Shown: one piece after another, positions 40,710 through 62,875 of the stretch
How the letters are laid out: every line of letters begins with the position of its first letter
How positions within the stretch are numbered: the stretch's first letter is position 1
NCBI RefSeq assembly: GCF_014863545.1
Contig: NZ_CP062260.1
Span: forward strand, 6,749,001 to 6,813,000
DNA: 64,000 nucleotides
Source of the DNA: Paenibacillus sp. JNUCC32
GTDB lineage: Bacteria > Bacillota > Bacilli > Paenibacillales > Paenibacillaceae
Reading direction: 5' to 3'
Notes under the pieces: generated by a model
Databases searched by the model: none
Seen by the model: only the letters and a program-made list of their open reading frames with translations
Told to the model about the DNA's origin: nothing
Program-made: the position numbers and the translations under genes

Positions 40710-41078
40710 TTATTTCATGGAGCGTTCCATGCGAACAAAAGCAATAAATCTTTTGGCTTCCTCTTCGGTTAACTTGCGGCCATCCACTGTGAGATTGAAC
40801 CGCTCCAGCAAATCCTGGTCCGAAAGCTCAAGTCCGTCCACAAATGAGCGAACCTCCGGATCAAGCACCGATTTCTCCAATGTTGTTCTCCCGATCAGAT
40901 AGTCTATGGATACGTCAAAGAGGTCTGCCAGGCGGGTCAATGTTTCAAAATCCGGCTTGCGCCGGTTTTTTTCGTAATGGGATAGTGCAGCACGAGTAAT
41001 GCCGACAGAGGTTGCGAGTTCTTCTTGAGTCCACCCGCGCTGTTCACGTAGTTCTGCAATTCGTTCTCCGTAGTTCAT
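40710..41078 (-). CDS. XRE-family transcriptional regulator
   Basis: A 122-residue protein with an N-terminal Cro/cI helix-turn-helix (ERIAELREQRGWTQEELATS, then VGITRAALSHYEKNRRKP) over residues 5-60, and a C-terminal helical part (LSDQDLLERFNLTVDGRKLT) that probably dimerises. It is transcribed away from the EPS/RiPP locus; the 328-base divergent region holds two copies of the GATAC-N5-GTATC palindrome. It is the best candidate to bind this palindrome at all three locus promoters (inference). Its layout recalls SinR control of EPS genes in B. subtilis. Confidence 0.92.
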   Translation of the reverse strand: MNYGERIAELREQRGWTQEELATSVGITRAALSHYEKNRRKPDFETLTRLADLFDVSIDYLIGRTTLEKSVLDPEVRSFVDGLELSDQDLLERFNLTVDGRKLTEEEAKRFIAFVRMERSMK

Positions 41079-41253: not shown

Positions 41254-41310
41254 TTGACTCGATACGATATGTATCGTAAAATTGGAAAATAAAACGATAC
41301 AATTTGTATC
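41254..41310 (+). promoter_or_regulatory. Promoter P1 with two palindromic operators
   Basis: TTGACT (41254-41259), a 17-base spacer and TAAAAT (41277-41282) form a sigma-A promoter. The spacer is filled by the palindrome GATACGATATGTATC (41261-41275). A second copy, GATACAATTTGTATC (41296-41310), lies exactly 35 bp downstream, just after the likely start point. A bound dimer would block polymerase at both. It drives the PilZ-like gene and probably the kinase and nucleotidyltransferase genes. Confidence 0.85.
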
Positions 41311-41933: not shown

Positions 41934-42623
41934 ATGGCGAGAAAATACAAAAATCCTCTGGTTACCGTCATTAACCCGAAATCTCCGGCAGCGGAATCGT
42001 ATCGGGGGCTAAGGACGAACATTCAATTTTCCGTTCATGACAAACAGGTTAGGGTGATCATGGTTGGCTCGGCTCAAATGAACGAAGGCAAAACAACCAC
42101 AGTTAGCAACTTGGCCGTCGCCTATGCGCATGAAGGCAAAAATGTGCTGTTGATTGAAGCGGATTTGCGCAAACCCTCACTGCATCACGTATTCGGCGTT
42201 TCGAACGATACCGGATTGACCAATGTCTTGGCCCAGCAGGTAGACGTTGAAGACGTCATTCGGCCGACGGCGGTTACGAATCTCTCCGTCATAACTTCCG
42301 GCTCCATTCCATACAACCCTTCCGAAATGCTAGGTTCCCACAACATGCAAATGTTAGTTCACGATCTTAAGCAACGCTACGACATGATTTTGTTTGATAC
42401 CCCTCCCATATTGGCAGTGAGCGATGCGCTCATTGTCAGTGCTTTATGCGATGGCGTCGTTTTGGTTGTACTGGGTGGGAAGGTGAAGAAATCCCAAGTG
42501 AGAAAAGCCAAAACTCAACTTGAGCATGTTAAGGCCCATCTTCTTGGGGTAGTGCTTAACAATATAACGATCAGAGAAAATGAAGCAGAGCAGCTTTATT
42601 ACGGTAGTAAGTGGTTGAAATGA
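41934..42623 (+). CDS. CpsD/CapB-type BY-kinase (tyrosine autokinase)
   Basis: A 229-residue bacterial tyrosine kinase that cycles EPS polymerisation with a Wzz-type activator. Walker A is in SAQMNEGKTTTVSNLAVAYA (about 44-63), Walker A' in LLIEADLRKP, and Walker B in MILFDTPPILAVSDAL. The C-terminal Tyr cluster is small (QLYYGSKWLK). The ribosome site is GGTGAG. It is unusual that the Wzz partner is not adjacent: the nearest is 5.9 kb away, beyond the RiPP-like genes. The next gene's ATG overlaps this stop. Confidence 0.93.
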   Translation: MARKYKNPLVTVINPKSPAAESYRGLRTNIQFSVHDKQVRVIMVGSAQMNEGKTTTVSNLAVAYAHEGKNVLLIEADLRKPSLHHVFGVSNDTGLTNVLAQQVDVEDVIRPTAVTNLSVITSGSIPYNPSEMLGSHNMQMLVHDLKQRYDMILFDTPPILAVSDALIVSALCDGVVLVVLGGKVKKSQVRKAKTQLEHVKAHLLGVVLNNITIRENEAEQLYYGSKWLK

Positions 42624-43672
42624 AGAACCGCGACATTCTGGTTATGTTTCTGGATGAGTTGTACCAGGGGAGGCTTCCTTCCCTGAGTGAATCTCAATAT
42701 GACAAACTGATGGAAGATGTCGAATTGTTTGATATCGGGCCCCAGGTTTTCTCAGAGCTTCAGCGAAAACACCTTCTTCTTCAAATCCCGGAAAAATTCC
42801 GGCGCAAATTAAGCTCTGATGCAAATACCGTACTCTTACAGAACCTTTTTATAAAAATCGAGCTCAAAAAGATCCTGCAGACCTTCGAAGCGTCCTGTAT
42901 AGAAGCGATCCCTCTCAAGGGAACGCTGCTTGCAGAACGCTATTTTGGCGGTCTCGCAGCGCGCGGCACGACAGATATCGACCTGCTTGTGGGCAAGGAG
43001 GACTTGCATCGAGCCGCCACGCTGTTGACGAATGCTGGATTTGTTAAAGCTGCGGGCGATGCTACACATTTTCATGAAGAGTACGTCAAATCATTGGATA
43101 ACGATAATTTTCCCTCGCTAACCATTGAATTGCATTGGAATATCAGCAGAGAGGATTTTACGGCTACGGATGTGTCACGTTTGTGGGACGAAGCTTGCGT
43201 GATGAGCGATTTTAATTACATTTACGAGCTAAGCCCGTTGCACACCTTTTACCATATTTGTCTGCACGGCATGAACCATCACATGATGTCGATGAAATAC
43301 TTTGTTGACATTGCAACGCTTATACATTCCCTTGATACAAGGCTGGATTACGCGAAACTGTTGGATATGGCCGCTGCGGATCGAAATCTCTCGAAGGTAT
43401 GGATCGCTTTGAATCTGGTTTACAGCATGTTCCCGCATCTTCAGGCACGATGGCCGCTGCCGCTGCTTTCATACAAGTTTAAATATCCAGGATGGAACCT
43501 TGAAAAGGCGCGTAAAGTTATGCAGGGTCGCAAGGGCTTTAGTTACTCATGGTTTAGGATGATGACCGCCTTCACGGTCCATGATACTTGGAGGCAGCGC
43601 TGGTCCCAGGTAGGATTCCTTATCTGGAATTTGCCGCTGCTATGGATAAGAAAACGTGAAATTTTCAGATAG
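42620..43672 (+). CDS. Nucleotidyltransferase-family protein (NTP_transf_5 type)
   Basis: A 350-residue protein with an N-terminal helical part and a nucleotidyltransferase core: IPLKGTLLAERYFGGLAARG then TTDIDLLVGKEDL (about 97-130), with the paired Asp of DxD. The ATG at 42620 overlaps the kinase stop (ATGA). Proteins of this family occur in lasso-peptide clusters of Bacilli; for pseudomycoidin one is reported to add sugar to a phosphorylated peptide (from memory). Here, next to an HPr-kinase-like gene and a RiPP precursor, it may modify the peptide in a similar way. The chemistry is inference. Confidence 0.85.
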   Translation: MKNRDILVMFLDELYQGRLPSLSESQYDKLMEDVELFDIGPQVFSELQRKHLLLQIPEKFRRKLSSDANTVLLQNLFIKIELKKILQTFEASCIEAIPLKGTLLAERYFGGLAARGTTDIDLLVGKEDLHRAATLLTNAGFVKAAGDATHFHEEYVKSLDNDNFPSLTIELHWNISREDFTATDVSRLWDEACVMSDFNYIYELSPLHTFYHICLHGMNHHMMSMKYFVDIATLIHSLDTRLDYAKLLDMAAADRNLSKVWIALNLVYSMFPHLQARWPLPLLSYKFKYPGWNLEKARKVMQGRKGFSYSWFRMMTAFTVHDTWRQRWSQVGFLIWNLPLLWIRKREIFR

Positions 43673-43716
43673 GATATTTTTACTATTTATTGGTTGCGAT
43701 ATGTAGCATTATCTAG

Positions 43717-43745
43717 TTGACATGATACAAATTGTATCATAAACT
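43717..43745 (+). promoter_or_regulatory. Promoter P2 of the precursor peptide, operator in spacer
   Basis: TTGACA (43717-43722), 17 bases, TAAACT (43740-43745). The palindrome GATACAAATTGTATC (43724-43738) occupies the spacer, flanked by T and A that extend the symmetry to 17 bp. The peptide gene starts 25 bases past the -10, so it has its own promoter under the same control as P1 and P3. Confidence 0.88.
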
Positions 43746-43770
43746 AATGCTCAAGAAGGAGGTGTTAAGT

Positions 43771-43875
43771 ATGAAAAAGACCTACGAGGCTCCAAAAATT
43801 TTGGCACAGGGCAAAGTGGAGTTTGGCACGACTCGTCCCAGCAACCCGGGCGGCGGCGGAAACCCTATTTGGTAG
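43771..43875 (+). CDS. RiPP precursor peptide with lasso-type leader, 34 aa
   Basis: ATG 43771 to TAG 43873-43875, after an AAGAAGGAGGTG ribosome site. The leader (MKKTYEAPKILAQGKVEFGT) fits the lasso-leader pattern Y-x-x-P-x-L-x-x-x-G-x5-T: Tyr5, Pro8, Ile10, Gly14, Thr20. Cutting two residues after that Thr, as in lasso peptides, leaves RPSNPGGGGNPIW. This core has no Asp or Glu at positions 7-9 and starts with Arg, so it cannot form the usual macrolactam. Modifiable residues are Ser24, Thr20/21 and the C-terminal Trp. Gene neighbours supply recognition, kinase, transferase, peptidase and exporter functions. No published match is known to me. Confidence 0.85.
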   Translation: MKKTYEAPKILAQGKVEFGTTRPSNPGGGGNPIW

Positions 43876-43958
43876 TATTTATACATTCCTTTGTTCATCG
43901 TTCCATAAAGCGCTTCGCTGGAATTGAATTATTATAGGTGGAAGTCGAGGTTGATCAT

Positions 43959-44750
43959 ATGTATGTAGCAACGGCAATAGTCGGAAAGTCCCGGGTGTCC
44001 TTTAAAACCGAATCGAAACGGATAGCCGAATTTGTCGCCAAGCGATTTAGGGTATCCGCCATTTCCGGTCAGGATCCTCAGGCTGATTTGTATGTTCGTA
44101 TTCGAGGTGGGTACGGAGAGCCATTTGATGATGGACCTGTCCAGATTTCTGTATCCGAACATCTAATTAACTTCAAACGCTGTGATTATCATATGATTTC
44201 ATCCCGGGATTACAGTTCGGCGGAAATCCATGTCTATGACGAGTTTGCCCTGAAGCATGCATTAATTAATTTGTACAGCTCATGGCTAATCCATGGAGAG
44301 CGCGGACTGCTGATCCATTCCTCTTGTGTGGTTCAAGACGGCAAAGCGTGGATGTTCGCAGGCCAATCCGGTGCAGGTAAGTCGACTGTCGCTGAGCTGT
44401 CGCGTCCCCGTCCGATTTTATCTGATGAAGCTACGTTTCTGTACATAGAAGAAAACGGACGTGTAACCGTGTTCGATTCTCCATTTCGCAGCGAGATGGA
44501 GAATCCCTGTGAACTTGAGGAAGCCGAATTATCCGGCATCCATTACATTATTCAATCCCCTGAAGTGGAGCGTGTGTCCATAACGCCGTTAGACGGATTC
44601 GCGCTAATGCTGGATAAGGTGTTTTATTGGCGTCATGATCCTGAGGAAACAAGAAATATGATTGCTTTATGCAAGAAGGTAGTGCAGCAAGTACCTTCCT
44701 ATCAGCTCTATTTTCAGAAAAATGATACGTTTTGGGAGAGGATTTCATGA
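43959..44750 (+). CDS. HPr-kinase-like peptide kinase
   Basis: A 263-residue HprK-related protein. ATG 43959 (GAGG upstream) is preferred to the GTG at 43938. The P-loop GQSGAGKST is at about 135-143, preceded by LLIHSSCVVQDGKAWMFAG, the characteristic beta-strand pattern of HPr kinase, and followed by LSDEATFLYIEENGRV. Related kinases in paeninodin-type clusters phosphorylate a Ser of the precursor, and related genes accompany PqqD-like genes in some EPS/exosortase loci. Here the only Ser of the precursor is Ser24. The stop overlaps the PqqD-like start (ATGA). Confidence 0.9.
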   Translation: MYVATAIVGKSRVSFKTESKRIAEFVAKRFRVSAISGQDPQADLYVRIRGGYGEPFDDGPVQISVSEHLINFKRCDYHMISSRDYSSAEIHVYDEFALKHALINLYSSWLIHGERGLLIHSSCVVQDGKAWMFAGQSGAGKSTVAELSRPRPILSDEATFLYIEENGRVTVFDSPFRSEMENPCELEEAELSGIHYIIQSPEVERVSITPLDGFALMLDKVFYWRHDPEETRNMIALCKKVVQQVPSYQLYFQKNDTFWERIS

Positions 44751-45028
44751 GCCAAACACAAACGAGGCTGCTGATAAGAAACGAGCACGTTGAAAGCGAA
44801 ATGATCGGAAACGAATGGATACTGCTGAACATGAAGGAGCATGTGGCAACCAAGCTGAATGAACTCGGGGGGTATATCTGGAGCATCATCCCGGAATATG
44901 GGCACATGGAAGGAATCATTGAAAAAATTGCGGAGGAGTATGACATTGACCGTCATACTGCTGAGCAGGACGTAAAACCATTTATTGAAGAACTGTTGGG
45001 CAGCGGCCTTCTGACGTATGCTGGATGA
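44747..45028 (+). CDS. PqqD-like RiPP recognition protein (B1-type)
   Basis: A 93-residue PqqD-family protein, the RRE fold that binds RiPP leader peptides. The sequence shows the family pattern: LLNMKEHVATKLNELGGYIW (about 26-45), then IIEKIAEEYDIDRHTAEQDV and a closing helix FIEELLGSGLL. The partner would be the Tyr-Pro-Leu-Gly leader motif of the 34-residue peptide. The ATG at 44747 has GGGAGAGG upstream. The next start lies within its last codons. Confidence 0.93.
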   Translation: MSQTQTRLLIRNEHVESEMIGNEWILLNMKEHVATKLNELGGYIWSIIPEYGHMEGIIEKIAEEYDIDRHTAEQDVKPFIEELLGSGLLTYAG

Positions 45029-45455
45029 GGCCAGAATCGCCAACGAATGGATGGAAAGACGCGGGGGGATCCAACTTCCCTCCTTGGGGCGCAGCATGTA
45101 CCCCTTCATGGTGGAGGGGGAGCTAAGTTCTTTTGAAAAGCTCAATCATGAGGAAGCCAGAATCGGTGAAGTCTATCTCTTTGTTACAGGAGCGGGAAGC
45201 CTCGTCTGTCATCGGCTTCATGACATTCATGGCGAAGGCAGCCTGAAACGATACATATTTAAAGGGGACACCAACATTGTCCCGGATGAGCCGGTACGGA
45301 AAGAACAAATCTTGGGACGGTTTACCGGAACTTATAAAAGGAAGGGTTGGATTCCTGCCGATCATTGGAAATTGTCGATTCTAACCTGGATAACGCTCAA
45401 CATACCGCTGTGGCCAAAGATGGTAAGGCGGTATTTGTCGTTAAGAAGGCTTTAA
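45018..45455 (+). CDS. S26 signal-peptidase-like protein (SipW/ER type, Ser-His)
   Basis: A 145-residue protein with the S26/S24 core: LPSLGRSMYPFMVEGE carries nucleophile Ser26, VCHRLHDI puts His65 where SipW/ER-type enzymes have the general base (bacterial LepB uses Lys), and FKGDTNIVPD matches the KGD-N-x-x-D box. There is no N-terminal membrane segment; a hydrophobic stretch near the C-terminus (LTWITLNIPLW) may tether it. In this cluster it stands where lasso clusters have the transglutaminase-like leader protease, so it probably cuts the precursor (inference). Confidence 0.85.
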   Translation: MLDEARIANEWMERRGGIQLPSLGRSMYPFMVEGELSSFEKLNHEEARIGEVYLFVTGAGSLVCHRLHDIHGEGSLKRYIFKGDTNIVPDEPVRKEQILGRFTGTYKRKGWIPADHWKLSILTWITLNIPLWPKMVRRYLSLRRL

Positions 45456-45473
45456 ATAGAAAGATGTGATGAT

Positions 45474-47714
45474 ATGAGGATATTACGAAAACGAGGATCG
45501 AGGATTTCGGAACGATCGGAAGAGCATGGCAAAGAGACGCCCTGGCTAATATTGCACGGAGACTTGAATCGTGATGTGCGTTTTGAACCGTTGCAGCTTG
45601 TGTTTACAGCTTCCAGGCTGCAGGCGCTGGATCGGGAAGGAAGGGAATTGCTGGATATTCCCAAGCGTAAAATGATGAACATCGACCTGGTTGAGGTCAT
45701 CGGCGGTGGTTGTCTTGTCGCTGGCACTTCGGACGGCCCGGTTGAAATTTTACGATTCACGGAACCGTACCTTGAGTCCTGTCGCAAGGCTCTGCCGCAA
45801 GTCGAACAGTGGATAACGGATTCATCGCCGCATCGTATGGACCAACGCGGCGATTTGGATGAAAAGAAGGGGAAATGTGACCGCTGCGGCCGCGCAAAAC
45901 GGACAGCTTCCGCTTTCTGCATGCGCTGCAATCCGAAATGGAGTACGGTGTCCCATCTTCTTCAGCGGAGCAGAGCCTATAGATCTTCTATCATGATGAT
46001 GGGGATCATCGTAACCGTTACCGTTCTTGTATCCCTGGCACCACCCTACGTAATCAAATGGATCATTGATGAAATATCATCGCCTACTCGCTCAGACGGG
46101 GATTCCGCGTCATTGATATGGTTGGCCGCAATGCTCGCCGGTTTGTATATTCTGCAGGCATTGCTTCAGATGATCGAAGGTTATACGGCCATTAGGATCA
46201 GTGGACGCTTCCTTGGGGAGATTCGCAGAGATATGTTTCATGCCCTGATGAAACAATCGATGCGTTTTTTTGATAATCGGCAGGTATCTCAATATATCGG
46301 ACGCATTAATCAGGATACGGATGCGCTCAAAAATTTTATGTCGCAAGGGATTGTTCACCTGACCTCTCAATTTTTATCCGCTATTTTTATTATGGGAATG
46401 CTGTTCTATTTGGATTGGCGCTTGACCCTGATGATCCTTCTGCCGCTGCCGCCGCTTGGAATCCTTGTGATGCGTCTGTGGCCGAAAGTCCGGGACATGT
46501 GGTATGCCCAGTGGCAGTCGTCCATTCACGTTCAAAATATGGTTGGGGAGGCTCTTCAGGGAATACGAATCATAAAAGCCTTCTCCAAGGAACATGCCGA
46601 GAAAGCACGTTTTGATCAGGTCAATCAAAAATATGTTCATCGCATGATTTCAATTCAGAACTTATGGATGTTCATGACGCCGGTACTCACGTTATTCATT
46701 TCACTGTTTGCAGCCCTCGTATGGTTTGCCGGAGGACGGAGCGTGCTGGAAGGCAGCATGACTGTCGGAACATTAAGCGCATATGCATCGTATTTGATCA
46801 TGTTCTTCGGTCCTGTCAAATGGCTGGCGCAATCCGCCAGCTGGATCAATGAGGTGCTGGGATCGGCCGAACGAATCTTTGAGGTGATTCAAACGCCTGC
46901 TGAAGTGAAGGATGACGAGAAAGCTCCGAGCTTTAACAACGTTCAAGGCGAAATCGTCTATGATCAGGTGGCTTTCGGCTATACGCAAGATCGACGAATT
47001 CTCCAAGGGATCAACCTACGAATAGCACCTGGCGAGATGATAGGCATCATCGGTCCGTCAGGAGCGGGGAAGTCGACCTTGATCCATCTGTTGTGCCGAT
47101 TTTATGATCCGGACGAGGGGGACATCTATGTGGACGGACGAAGGCTTACCAGCATTAAGCAAGAGGAATTAAGGAGAAACATTGGGGTAGTGTTTCAGGA
47201 AACCTTCCTCTTCGATGGGACCATAGCGCAGAATATCGCTTATGGATGCCCCGAAGCCAGTACAGAGGACATTATTCAAGCGGCAAGGACCGCAAATGCG
47301 CATGACTTTATATGCCGCCTCCCTGACGGCTATGAAACAAAGGTAGGAGAAAGAGGGCATCGGTTGTCCGGAGGAGAGAGGCAGCGTATAGCGATTGCCA
47401 GAGCCGTGCTGCTCGATCCCCCGATTCTGATCTTGGATGAGGCGACCTCCTCGGTCGATGTGGAGACCGAAGCTGTCATTCAGGAGGCGCTGGATACGGT
47501 GGTTCAAGGCAGAACGACCCTTGTCATTGCTCATCGGCTGTCGACTCTTCGGCGAGCGGATCGGCTTCTGGTTCTTGAAGGAGGGAGGCTGGTCGAGAGT
47601 GGAAGCCATGAAGAGCTTCTGAGACGCCAAGGGGTATATCATCGTTTGCTTCATGCAGCGCAGGCGAAAGCCCCGAAAGACGAATGGATACCGATGCAGG
47701 AGGTTGCTACATGA
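45474..47714 (+). CDS. ABC exporter with N-terminal PH-like domain and zinc ribbon
   Basis: A 746-residue fused TMD-NBD exporter. The unusual front part (1-125) looks like a PH-type beta domain (LHGDLNRDVRFEPLQLVFTA, DLVEVIGGGCLVAGTSDGP), followed by a zinc ribbon CDRCGRAKRTASAFCMRC near 139-156 (two CxxC pairs). Six membrane helices follow (about 180-470), then the NBD with Walker A GPSGAGKST, signature LSGGERQRIAIARA, Walker B LILDEATSSVD and the H-loop. It probably exports the peptide or a precursor of the EPS. Directly followed by, and overlapping, the DUF1854 gene. Confidence 0.92.
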   Translation: MRILRKRGSRISERSEEHGKETPWLILHGDLNRDVRFEPLQLVFTASRLQALDREGRELLDIPKRKMMNIDLVEVIGGGCLVAGTSDGPVEILRFTEPYLESCRKALPQVEQWITDSSPHRMDQRGDLDEKKGKCDRCGRAKRTASAFCMRCNPKWSTVSHLLQRSRAYRSSIMMMGIIVTVTVLVSLAPPYVIKWIIDEISSPTRSDGDSASLIWLAAMLAGLYILQALLQMIEGYTAIRISGRFLGEIRRDMFHALMKQSMRFFDNRQVSQYIGRINQDTDALKNFMSQGIVHLTSQFLSAIFIMGMLFYLDWRLTLMILLPLPPLGILVMRLWPKVRDMWYAQWQSSIHVQNMVGEALQGIRIIKAFSKEHAEKARFDQVNQKYVHRMISIQNLWMFMTPVLTLFISLFAALVWFAGGRSVLEGSMTVGTLSAYASYLIMFFGPVKWLAQSASWINEVLGSAERIFEVIQTPAEVKDDEKAPSFNNVQGEIVYDQVAFGYTQDRRILQGINLRIAPGEMIGIIGPSGAGKSTLIHLLCRFYDPDEGDIYVDGRRLTSIKQEELRRNIGVVFQETFLFDGTIAQNIAYGCPEASTEDIIQAARTANAHDFICRLPDGYETKVGERGHRLSGGERQRIAIARAVLLDPPILILDEATSSVDVETEAVIQEALDTVVQGRTTLVIAHRLSTLRRADRLLVLEGGRLVESGSHEELLRRQGVYHRLLHAAQAKAPKDEWIPMQEVAT

Positions 47715-48208
47715 TGGTAGCGAGAAGGGAAGTATGGGCTCAGGACCAAAGTCTTCGACTCTATCGTAACGGGATAGGTGAACTAGAGGCGGAAAAAAAC
47801 CGAGAGACAATCGGTAAAGTGCGCCTTGTTCTGACATTTCCGGTCACGAAGCCGGAGGGGTACATTTCTGTGCGCTCTGCATTGGATCAAGAGGTTCATT
47901 TTATTCTTTCGCTGGATGAACTGGATAAGAAAAGCCAGTCGGCTGCCAGGGAAGAACTGCAGCGAAGCTATTTGATACCCGAGATATTGAAAATTATGGG
48001 AATCAAGCGCCGGGGCAGGAATTGGCTATGGGAAGTGGAGACGACATATGGCAGGATCTCATTTCGCATAGACCAGCCGCAAGAGAGCATCGATTTCCTC
48101 TCGGAGAATGATTATACAATCAAGGATACGGAGGGCAGACGATACGCCCTCCGCGATATTACACGTCTCGACAAACAGAGCAAGCTCTATTGGAATAAGA
48201 TCAATTAG
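47711..48208 (+). CDS. DUF1854 protein, exporter partner
   Basis: A 165-residue protein from ATG 47711 (GCAGGAGG upstream, overlap ATGATG with the exporter stop); the in-frame ATG at 47684 lies inside the exporter. It shows the DUF1854 pattern: VLTFPVTKPEGYISVRSALD, LDELDKKSQSAAREELQRSY, ENDYTIKDTEGRRYALRDIT. As far as I recall, DUF1854 genes often adjoin ABC exporters with such N-terminal parts, so the pair may act as one complex. Role unknown. Confidence 0.88.
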   Translation: MMVARREVWAQDQSLRLYRNGIGELEAEKNRETIGKVRLVLTFPVTKPEGYISVRSALDQEVHFILSLDELDKKSQSAAREELQRSYLIPEILKIMGIKRRGRNWLWEVETTYGRISFRIDQPQESIDFLSENDYTIKDTEGRRYALRDITRLDKQSKLYWNKIN

Positions 48209-48366: not shown

Positions 48367-48467
48367 GTAACAAAATGTATCGTTTGTAGGTAAATAAGAC
48401 CAAATCAGTATTGACACGATACGAATTGTATCGTAAATTGAAGATGCTAAATGATACAAAATGTATC
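48367..48467 (+). promoter_or_regulatory. Promoter P3 of the EPS operon with two or three operators
   Basis: TTGACA (48411-48416), 17 bases, TAAATT (48434-48439), with the palindrome GATACGAATTGTATC (48418-48432) in the spacer. A second, GATACAAAATGTATC (48453-48467), lies 35 bp downstream, the same offset as at P1. A degenerate third copy (GTAACAAAATGTATC, 13 of 15) is at 48367-48381. The identical geometry supports one repressor for all three promoters. Confidence 0.87.
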
Positions 48468-61366: not shown

Positions 61367-61933
61367 ATGACGGGGGAGAATGCCGTGGGCAGAAACAGAA
61401 GCAGCTACAGGAGCAGGAGGCTCCTGTTTATCATCGTCATCGTTTTCGTTTGGATGAGCATCATTTTTTTCTTCTCCTCCCAGTCGTACCAGCAGCAGGA
61501 TCTAAGGCCGTGGCTTCAGGAGCACTTGCCAGAGGCGGCGATTGAACACTGGTTTTCATGGGTTTCGTTTACTTATGCCGGAGAGATCGTTAGCATCGAT
61601 GCCAAGGGTGTGCCCGGTTTCGTTGAATTTTTTATCCGAAAGGCAGCCCACATCGGGGAATACTTCGTCCTTGGTGGCTTGTTGCTGCTGCTGTTGACGA
61701 ATTTGCTGCGGATCAGGGCTAGCATAGTCATACCTGTGTCATGGTGCTTGTGCGCGTTGTATGCCGTTAGCGACGAGCTGCATCAAAGCACATCGGGGTA
61801 CCGCATCTTTAAGGCACAGGATGTTGTCCTGGATTCGATTGCCGCATTGGTCGGAATAACGCTGGTCAGTGCATATACATATTGGAGGTCTATGAAATCG
61901 AGGCCGAGGGAAGTGTTAGATCGGAAAGGATGA
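61367..61933 (+). CDS. VanZ-family membrane protein
   Basis: A 188-residue protein with four hydrophobic segments, the first being LLFIIVIVFVWMSIIFFFSS. The VanZ pattern is seen in RKAAHIGEYFVLGGLLLLLL and SDELHQSTSGYRIFKAQDVV. Relatives occur in many Gram-positive EPS and teicoplanin-resistance loci; a role in lipid-linked sugar metabolism or surface attachment is not established. It lies 16 bases after manC and 6 before the LCP gene. Confidence 0.9.
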   Translation: MTGENAVGRNRSSYRSRRLLFIIVIVFVWMSIIFFFSSQSYQQQDLRPWLQEHLPEAAIEHWFSWVSFTYAGEIVSIDAKGVPGFVEFFIRKAAHIGEYFVLGGLLLLLLTNLLRIRASIVIPVSWCLCALYAVSDELHQSTSGYRIFKAQDVVLDSIAALVGITLVSAYTYWRSMKSRPREVLDRKG

Positions 61934-61939
61934 CGAGGC

Positions 61940-62875
61940 ATGAAAAAATGGCTGAAGATTACGGCGGGAGCGCTCGTGAGTCTGACCGTGTTGGCAGGCG
62001 GTTATGGTGTGTATGTGTACCAGTCCGTCAAAGCGACGGCTGAACAAATTTATGAGCAGCGGGAACCCTCATCGCCTCCCGCTTTTATAACAGCCGATCC
62101 CATCCTGCAGGAAATCCAGACGGCGGATATTGATCGGCGCGAGCCCTTTACGGTGCTTGTGCTGGGAGTAGACGAACGCCCGAATGACCGGGGAAGGTCG
62201 GACGCGATGATTATGCTGTCCGTCAATCCGTCGAAACAGTCGATCCTGATGTTTAACATTCCTCGAGACACTCGTACAGTCATCGCGGACCGCGGCACGG
62301 AGGATAAAATCAATCATGCCTACGCGTTCGGAGGCATCCAAATGTCCGTACGGACCGTTGAGGAATGGCTCCGATTTCCGGTGAATTATTACGTTAAAGT
62401 CAACATGGAGGGTTTTGCGAACATCATAGACGCGCTTGGCGGAGTCGATATTGATAACGCGTTGGCATTTGATTATGAGGGCCATCATTTTGCCAAGGGA
62501 CGGCTGCATTTGAACGGCCGGGAAGCATTGGCTTTTTCCCGGATGCGTTATGAGGATCCCCGCGGCGATTTAGGCAGGAATTCCAGGCAGCGTCAAATCG
62601 TGAAAGAAGTGTTGAACAGCGCGCTTGACGTATCAACGGTCTTCAAGCTTGAAGCTTTGCTTAAGGAGGTCGGGTCAAGCGTAAAGACAGACGTCCGATT
62701 TGATGAAATGAAGACGTTTGTAACCGACTATCGCCAGGATATGAAAACCATCAAACAGATCGAAATTCAGGGAGGCGGGCAGAAGATCGGCGGTGTCTGG
62801 TATTATCAAGTGAGCGAGAAGGAACGTCAGCGTATCCATCAACTGCTTAAAGAGCATATGGATCGAAACGAATGA
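61940..62875 (+). CDS. LCP-family (LytR-CpsA-Psr) phosphotransferase
   Basis: A 311-residue LCP protein with one N-terminal membrane helix (ITAGALVSLTVLAGGYGVYV) and the catalytic domain outside. Landmarks are VLGVDERPNDRGRSDAMIML (about 72-91), FNIPRDTRTVI with the phosphate-binding Arg residues, and the later FSRMRYEDPRGDLGR. Such enzymes move undecaprenyl-linked polymers onto peptidoglycan, so at least part of the EPS may be wall-bound. It is the last gene of the operon. Confidence 0.95.
   Translation: MKKWLKITAGALVSLTVLAGGYGVYVYQSVKATAEQIYEQREPSSPPAFITADPILQEIQTADIDRREPFTVLVLGVDERPNDRGRSDAMIMLSVNPSKQSILMFNIPRDTRTVIADRGTEDKINHAYAFGGIQMSVRTVEEWLRFPVNYYVKVNMEGFANIIDALGGVDIDNALAFDYEGHHFAKGRLHLNGREALAFSRMRYEDPRGDLGRNSRQRQIVKEVLNSALDVSTVFKLEALLKEVGSSVKTDVRFDEMKTFVTDYRQDMKTIKQIEIQGGGQKIGGVWYYQVSEKERQRIHQLLKEHMDRNE

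Follow-up and report, generated by a model that had tools for sequence, protein, structure and literature searches.

A probable linear polyphosphorylated peptide cluster of a DUF1854-containing sub-type in an exopolysaccharide locus of Paenibacillus sp. JNUCC32

The RiPP-type gene set at 42620-48208 of the window (the whole stretch of 64,000 nucleotides that was analysed, NZ_CP062260.1 positions 6,749,001 to 6,813,000) is very probably (about 0.9) a Linear Polyphosphorylated Peptide (LPP) cluster, of a sub-type that contains a DUF1854 protein. ORF reading together with NCBIfam and Pfam profiles places it within an EPS locus of the 7.0-Mb genome; LPP clusters, described by Popov et al. 2026 (PMC13381572), were originally noticed within capsular polysaccharide loci. 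The LPP core set is complete in the window (precursor, HprK kinase, discrete RRE, SpI peptidase, exporter and NTP transferase), and the apparent fit rests on features that sequence can test, the leader deviating slightly. The observed basis consists of the genes, their catalytic residues, the selection on the precursor, a shared operator sequence and sub-type correlations. The original prediction had called this a cyclase-free RiPP-type system in an EPS locus, in which lasso-type leader recognition serves a different chemistry, and this we judge to be right; its further proposal of a separate, undescribed class does not hold, since the locus fits the family of PMC13381572. The seven genes that it had read at 42620-48208, with overlapping or near-adjacent starts, are confirmed by ORF reading and by Pfam and NCBIfam.

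Between 41 and 50 kb, a divergent XRE regulator is followed by an unassigned 136-aa ORF, a BY-kinase-like gene, a PF14907 nucleotidyltransferase (NTase), the 34-aa ORF and an HprK-like gene, then by a PqqD-type RRE, an archaeal/SipW-type signal peptidase, an ABC exporter, the DUF1854 protein and a Wzz-like gene. Downstream of the latter lie a GalU-like gene (named by eye), a sugar transferase, GDP-sugar genes, a flippase, glycosyltransferases, VanZ and LCP. Four junctions overlap by 4-11 nt (BY-kinase/NTase 4, HprK/PqqD 4, PqqD/S26 11 and ABC/DUF1854 4, this last only with the first ATG of DUF1854 as start). The features are:

40710..41078, minus strand: divergent XRE-type HTH regulator (HTH_3, 72 bits), putative candidate for the shared operator
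41261-41275 and 41296-41310, no strand: two operator palindromes before the unit running into BY-kinase and NTase
41934..42623, plus strand: BY-kinase-like (CpsD/YwqD-type) EPS gene, named by eye, overlapping lppN
42620..43672, plus strand: lppN-like nucleotidyltransferase (PF14907, 136 bits; DxD at D119/D121), its start overlapping the BY-kinase stop
43718..43746, plus strand: lppA promoter, TTGACA, 17-nt spacer with palindrome GATACAAATTGTATC (43724-43738), TAAACT
43771..43875, plus strand: lppA precursor, 34 aa, predicted leader 1-20 ending in FGT, predicted core 21-34
43831-43872, plus strand: predicted lppA core TRPSNPGGGGNPIW, cut site by homology to PMC13381572
43840-43842, plus strand: predicted phospho-Ser24 codon of lppA, phosphosite by homology to PMC13381572
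43959..44750, plus strand: lppK-like HprK-family kinase (H120, P-loop K141, D156, E157; kinase tree)
44747..45028, plus strand: lppB-like discrete RRE (PqqD; PF05402, 56 bits), N38/D75 aligning with LppB N33/D70
45018..45455, plus strand: lppS-like archaeal/SipW-type signal peptidase, predicted leader peptidase (TIGR02228, 53.4 bits, cut-off 51.85; S26, H65, D84, D90)
45474..47714, plus strand: lppD-like ABC exporter, N-terminal PH/PTB-like domain at about residues 25-115, Cys-rich ribbon before the membrane domain
47711 or 47714..48208, plus strand: DUF1854 protein (PF08909, 104 bits), sub-type marker and predicted exporter partner
48418-48432 and 48453-48467, no strand: two operator palindromes before the wzz/EPS unit
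61367-61933, plus strand: VanZ-like gene at the far end of the EPS locus
61940-62875, plus strand: LytR-CpsA-Psr (LCP) gene, directly after the VanZ-like gene and paired with it

In the published LPP system (PMC13381572), a core Ser is (poly)phosphorylated, the HprK-type kinase LppK placing up to four phosphates on S3, and the leader is removed by RRE-dependent cleavage after T-1; the remaining parts are the RRE LppB, the SipW-type peptidase LppS, the exporter LppD and the NTP transferase LppN. Its leader motif is YxxPxVLxHQxIxFETxxS, reduced to a working motif Px9Fx[T/A] (PMC13381572). The window leader YEAPKILAQGKVEFGTTRPS fits the working motif exactly as Px9FxT. Against the full motif, it keeps Y, P, Q, F, T and S and carries two conservative changes (V to I and I to V), with deviations at H, at E-2 and in the Ser spacing. 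The LppA that was tested carries S3 and an E-2 whose replacement lowered cleavage (PMC13381572), whereas the window precursor has Gly at -2 and Ser at core position 4.

The 34-aa precursor is a real gene under strong purifying selection, because the 14 codons (stop included) that differ from its nearest relative in this comparison, the L062 precursor, are all synonymous, with no amino-acid change. A six-frame search with a leader regex gave 51 hits in 54 sources (the window, 46 relative loci and 7 named loci) and none when the sequence was reversed; by eye, three of the hits look spurious. Fourteen sources yielded nothing, and four further precursors with other residues after FE were read by eye from translations. 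The ORF is conserved beside these genes, and neither this check nor the genome-wide search for lasso enzymes refutes the original prediction of a cyclase-free system. In L074-L078, two or three tandem precursors per locus share an NNFFYxWCxxxxFxPFICxLFYG-like core with two Cys.

The best PDB match of the RRE is the LPP RRE 9x8z (E 6.6e-15, 58.6 bits), ahead of 5v1u (38.7) and the paeninodin-type 9x90 (29.5), and alignment to 9x8z identifies N38 and D75 with the discriminating LPP residues N33/D70, which serve YxxP recognition in LppB (PMC13381572). The peptidase ORF has no Pfam match, and its S26, H65 and D90 correspond to the catalytic S29/H68/D93 of LppS (PMC13381572) with identical spacings of 39 and 25. 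The HprK-like protein falls below every Pfam cut-off and its best NCBIfam scores lie far under theirs (ScmC, 29.1 against 125 bits; HprK_rel_A, TIGR04352, 23.2 against 200). Across aligned sequences, window included, the peptidase S/H/D/D is invariant (42/42), as are the NTase DxD (40/40) and the kinase D and E (47/47); kinase H and K are kept in 46/47, and the RRE N and D in 43/46 and 45/46. The 46 relative loci yielded PqqD in 45, S26 in 41, NTase in 39 and ABC in 44 (two of them weak), locus searches missing S26 in five and NTase in seven. In L064 (6809-8067), the precursor lacks the leader Tyr and Phe, the RRE has Asn at the D70 position, and no S26 gene was found in the locus or in the genome, which is 88% complete. 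These joint losses, from a single incomplete genome, would fit the published contacts, in which LppB D70 holds the leader Tyr and LppS the leader Phe (PMC13381572), and L064 could be either a cleavage-free LPP or a decaying cluster.

Kinase relatives (E 1e-12 or better) were found in 46 of 394 family genomes, 6 of them among 100 genus genomes, where the further matches were short P-loop matches. An alignment search of 392 order genomes, an even sample overlapping the family set, gave 77, and a scan of named genomes gave at least 586 candidate stretches, a relative being encoded in at least 16 among the matches listed. DUF1854 is present in 24 of the 46 relative loci; this sub-type appears to be new and, in our sample, was seen only in the window's family. 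A search of a literature collection for DUF1854 found no paper, and the main text of PMC13381572 makes no mention of it.

All 24 DUF1854 loci carry an exporter ORF of 727-817 aa, against 592-651 aa in the 22 loci without DUF1854, with five exceptions (725 aa in L103, where the start runs back over the S26 gene; weak short matches only in L088 and L107; none in L089 and L094). Exporter length alone is no clean marker, because lengths where found ranged over 222-711 aa in 54 later loci without DUF1854. Exporter residues 21-110 are modelled as a PH/PTB-like domain with mean pLDDT 95-98 (Foldseek probability 1.00, best E 5e-4, TM-score by query at most 0.48 among the matches listed). On the kinase tree, the window falls in a 19-row clade made up entirely of DUF1854 loci (100/100), apart from two lasso-type kinases; a second, weakly supported clade (99/38) joins six DUF1854 rows with L107, a locus without DUF1854. 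The DUF1854 label changes 3 times on this tree vs 18.2 in shuffles.

Phosphosite spacing follows the same division. In the first clade, all 24 precursors (17 loci, window included) have a leader ending in FGT and Ser at core position 4, while all 22 precursors from loci without DUF1854 (21 loci) have FET and Ser at position 3; the second clade's six precursors show FE[GTRH], and their conserved Ser stands at position 5, except in one where it stands at position 4. Two DUF1854 loci stand outside these counts, L064 with its degenerate precursor and L079, where none was found. A test set not used for finding the rule (the 54 loci from other families of the order) gave 43 precursor hits in 40 loci with a looser regex, against 3 in the reversed control; L162, on the same contig as L113, is not an independent member of these 40. 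All 43 have FET and 42 have Ser at position 3, and DUF1854 was found in none of the 54 loci, so the test checks only one side of the FGT/FET rule. In the exception, L154, Cys replaces the conserved phospho-acceptor Ser (FETAQCWN). This indicates that the spacing of the phosphosite varies along with the type of exporter, and suggests that DUF1854 may be a partner of the exporter. LCP genes are also found more often in DUF1854 loci (11/24 vs 2/22), as is VanZ (8/24 vs 0/22); in several relatives these genes lie between NTase and precursor, and in the window the pair stands at the end of the EPS locus.

The link to EPS comes from a shared palindrome. GATACRAWWTGTATC occurs five times in the whole 7.0-Mb genome, always at the EPS locus (41261, 41296, 43724, 48418 and 48453): two sites precede the BY-kinase/NTase unit, one lppA and two the wzz/EPS unit, and three of the five fill the 17-nt spacer of TTGACA-like/TAAA-like promoters. 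This promoter-operator form has 32 occurrences, spread over 25 of the 46 relative loci, vs none in reversed or shuffled sequence. It lies upstream of the precursor in 15 of the 24 DUF1854 loci and in 0 of the 22 others, at a distance to the precursor start codon or leader motif of 50-64 nt in 13 loci, 202 nt in L075 and 174 nt in L076, with a precursor-like ORF in between. L065-L071 and L079 lack it, and L063 has sites before other units only. In the test loci, it precedes the precursor in 2 of 54, though 35 sites are carried. The exact palindrome is present in 261 of the 394 family genomes and the kinase in 46, so the palindrome is not specific to LPP; it is probably a widespread operator in this family that XRE-type regulators perhaps bind. 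An XRE homologue was found in 7 of the 46 relative loci, and we infer both the identity of the regulator (XRE) and the direction of regulation. Our reading is that the peptide gene of the sub-type would have been brought under this common operator. Since the lppA promoter spacer holds the same operator as the adjoining EPS units, peptide and EPS are probably made together, a co-control that fits the synchronous rise of lppB and an EPS gene measured by RT-qPCR in another species, P. alginolyticus (PMC13381572).

By analogy with the published relative, the RRE would recognise the YxxPxI motif of the leader, the HprK-like kinase would put one or more phosphates on Ser24, and the SipW-type peptidase would cleave after FGT (residue 20) to release a linear 14-residue core; the NTase may attach a sugar or nucleotide to the phosphate, and the ABC exporter, presumably helped by DUF1854, would carry the peptide out. 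The likely product would therefore be a linear 14-residue peptide with phospho-Ser24, made along with EPS, and it might serve in EPS or biofilm. PMC13381572 reports no final product for an LPP cluster.

What such a peptide would do can be read in several ways. An antimicrobial or signalling phosphopeptide, incidental to its EPS-locus setting, is a somewhat unlikely reading to which the hypervariability of the cores, the occurrence of up to three precursors per locus and the patchy distribution (46/394 family and 77/392 order genomes) lend themselves, as does a second ABC ATPase match after DUF1854 in 11 of the 24 sub-type loci. In the three of these that were checked (L072:2135-3878, L076:12274-14026 and L098:11400-13206), it is followed by an ABC2_membrane_4 permease, a pairing that recalls bacteriocin self-protection transporters. 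In the window, however, wzz follows DUF1854 instead of an ATPase/permease pair and the lppA operator is common to the EPS units, and the joint up-regulation in P. alginolyticus (PMC13381572) also speaks against an incidental setting. Searches that used the window's own genes as queries moreover detected an EPS-type gene within reach in 27 of the 46 relative loci and none in 19; the 19 include L065-L071, seven close DUF1854 loci related to one another, which have neither promoter-operator nor EPS-type gene in reach.

It is unlikely that the phosphopeptide is structural, binding cations or polymer in the matrix free of sugar while the NTase acts on something else. Many cores are indeed rich in Gly, Pro, His or Asn (lengths in the sample are 10-61 aa, the window core being short at 14), and lppN deletion had no visible effect in a heterologous host (PMC13381572); yet the NTase is present in 39 of the 46 loci with its DxD intact, and its lasso relative PsmN has been linked to a hexose on phospho-Ser (PMC9266682). 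More speculative, and distinctly improbable, is that a phosphoserine glycosylated by the NTase acts as primer or anchor for the co-regulated polysaccharide, an LCP phosphotransferase making the phosphodiester link.

Lasso clusters encode an Asn-synthetase-like cyclase and a transglutaminase-like B2 protease, and the original prediction had noted that both are missing here. Whole-genome profile searches agree, with no plausible cyclase and no B2 over cut-off. The two PF00733 matches, a 616-aa ORF that is AsnB-like by size and score and a weaker 522-aa ORF that is GuaA-like by size and neighbour, both lie more than 2 Mb from the locus; PF13471 (B2) has a single match, sub-cut-off, in a 784-aa ORF, and the sole PF05402 (PqqD) match is the RRE of the 42620-48208 locus. 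Among the 46 family genomes with the kinase, PF13471 exceeds its cut-off somewhere in 28, with only two matches inside the fetched loci (G310 and G350); the match in G253, a 785-aa ORF, is probably not a B2. A decaying remnant of a paeninodin-type lasso cluster, with cyclase and B2 lost, is highly improbable: kinase, NTase and RRE are of the types found in paeninodin-like clusters (PMC9266682) and the leader matches the lasso model weakly (18.2 bits, cut-off 33), but the precursor is under strong purifying selection, catalytic residues are kept beside a separate peptidase, the RRE has the LPP N and D and not the paeninodin Gly (PMC13381572), the two lasso-type kinases branch far away from the window's kinase, and the window precursor has no Asp/Glu at core positions 7-9 for a lactam.

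As an LPP cluster, the window locus adds to this RiPP family, described in 2026, a DUF1854 sub-type with a predicted shift of the phosphorylation site, and suggests a job for DUF1854 as exporter partner. It offers a short core, a genome without detected lasso enzymes and a regulatory link to EPS that can be tested by deletion.

Gene sets with HprK-rel-A are associated with exosortase. The results bear weakly on the proposed relation to HprK/PqqD sets in other phyla, through the sub-cut-off TIGR04352 score and through distant HprK/PqqD/NTase-like neighbourhoods on a few metagenome contigs (L117-L119). Among the matches listed, HprK-like and PF14907-type NTase-like genes adjoin on two Omnitrophota contigs (L117:1232-5973 and L119:8614-13225), L117 having a PqqD-like gene as well; these are possible distant relatives outside Bacillota. 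The window exporter and DUF1854 protein are homologous to the cyanophycin-associated ABC transporter/DUF1854 pair (NF052233 and NF052234; 565 and 79.5 bits), but lie under the cut-offs (880 and 150) and in a RiPP operon. With phosphorylated lasso peptides of the paeninodin/pseudomycoidin type (PMC9266682), the cluster shares the types of kinase, NTase and RRE and a [Y/W]xxP leader; it differs in having no cyclase and no B2, and in a predicted kinase target near the core start rather than at a C-terminal Ser. The closest likeness is to LPP (PMC13381572). Both have an HprK-like kinase, a discrete RRE, a SipW-type leader peptidase, an MsbA-like exporter, an NTP transferase, a YxxP leader, a conserved Ser just past the cut site and an EPS/capsule setting, without a cyclase. 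What sets the window apart within this family are the DUF1854 protein and the PH-like N-terminal extension on the exporter, FGT with Ser at core +4 in place of FET with +3, the NTase upstream of the precursor, the EPS-shared operator at lppA and the 14-aa core.
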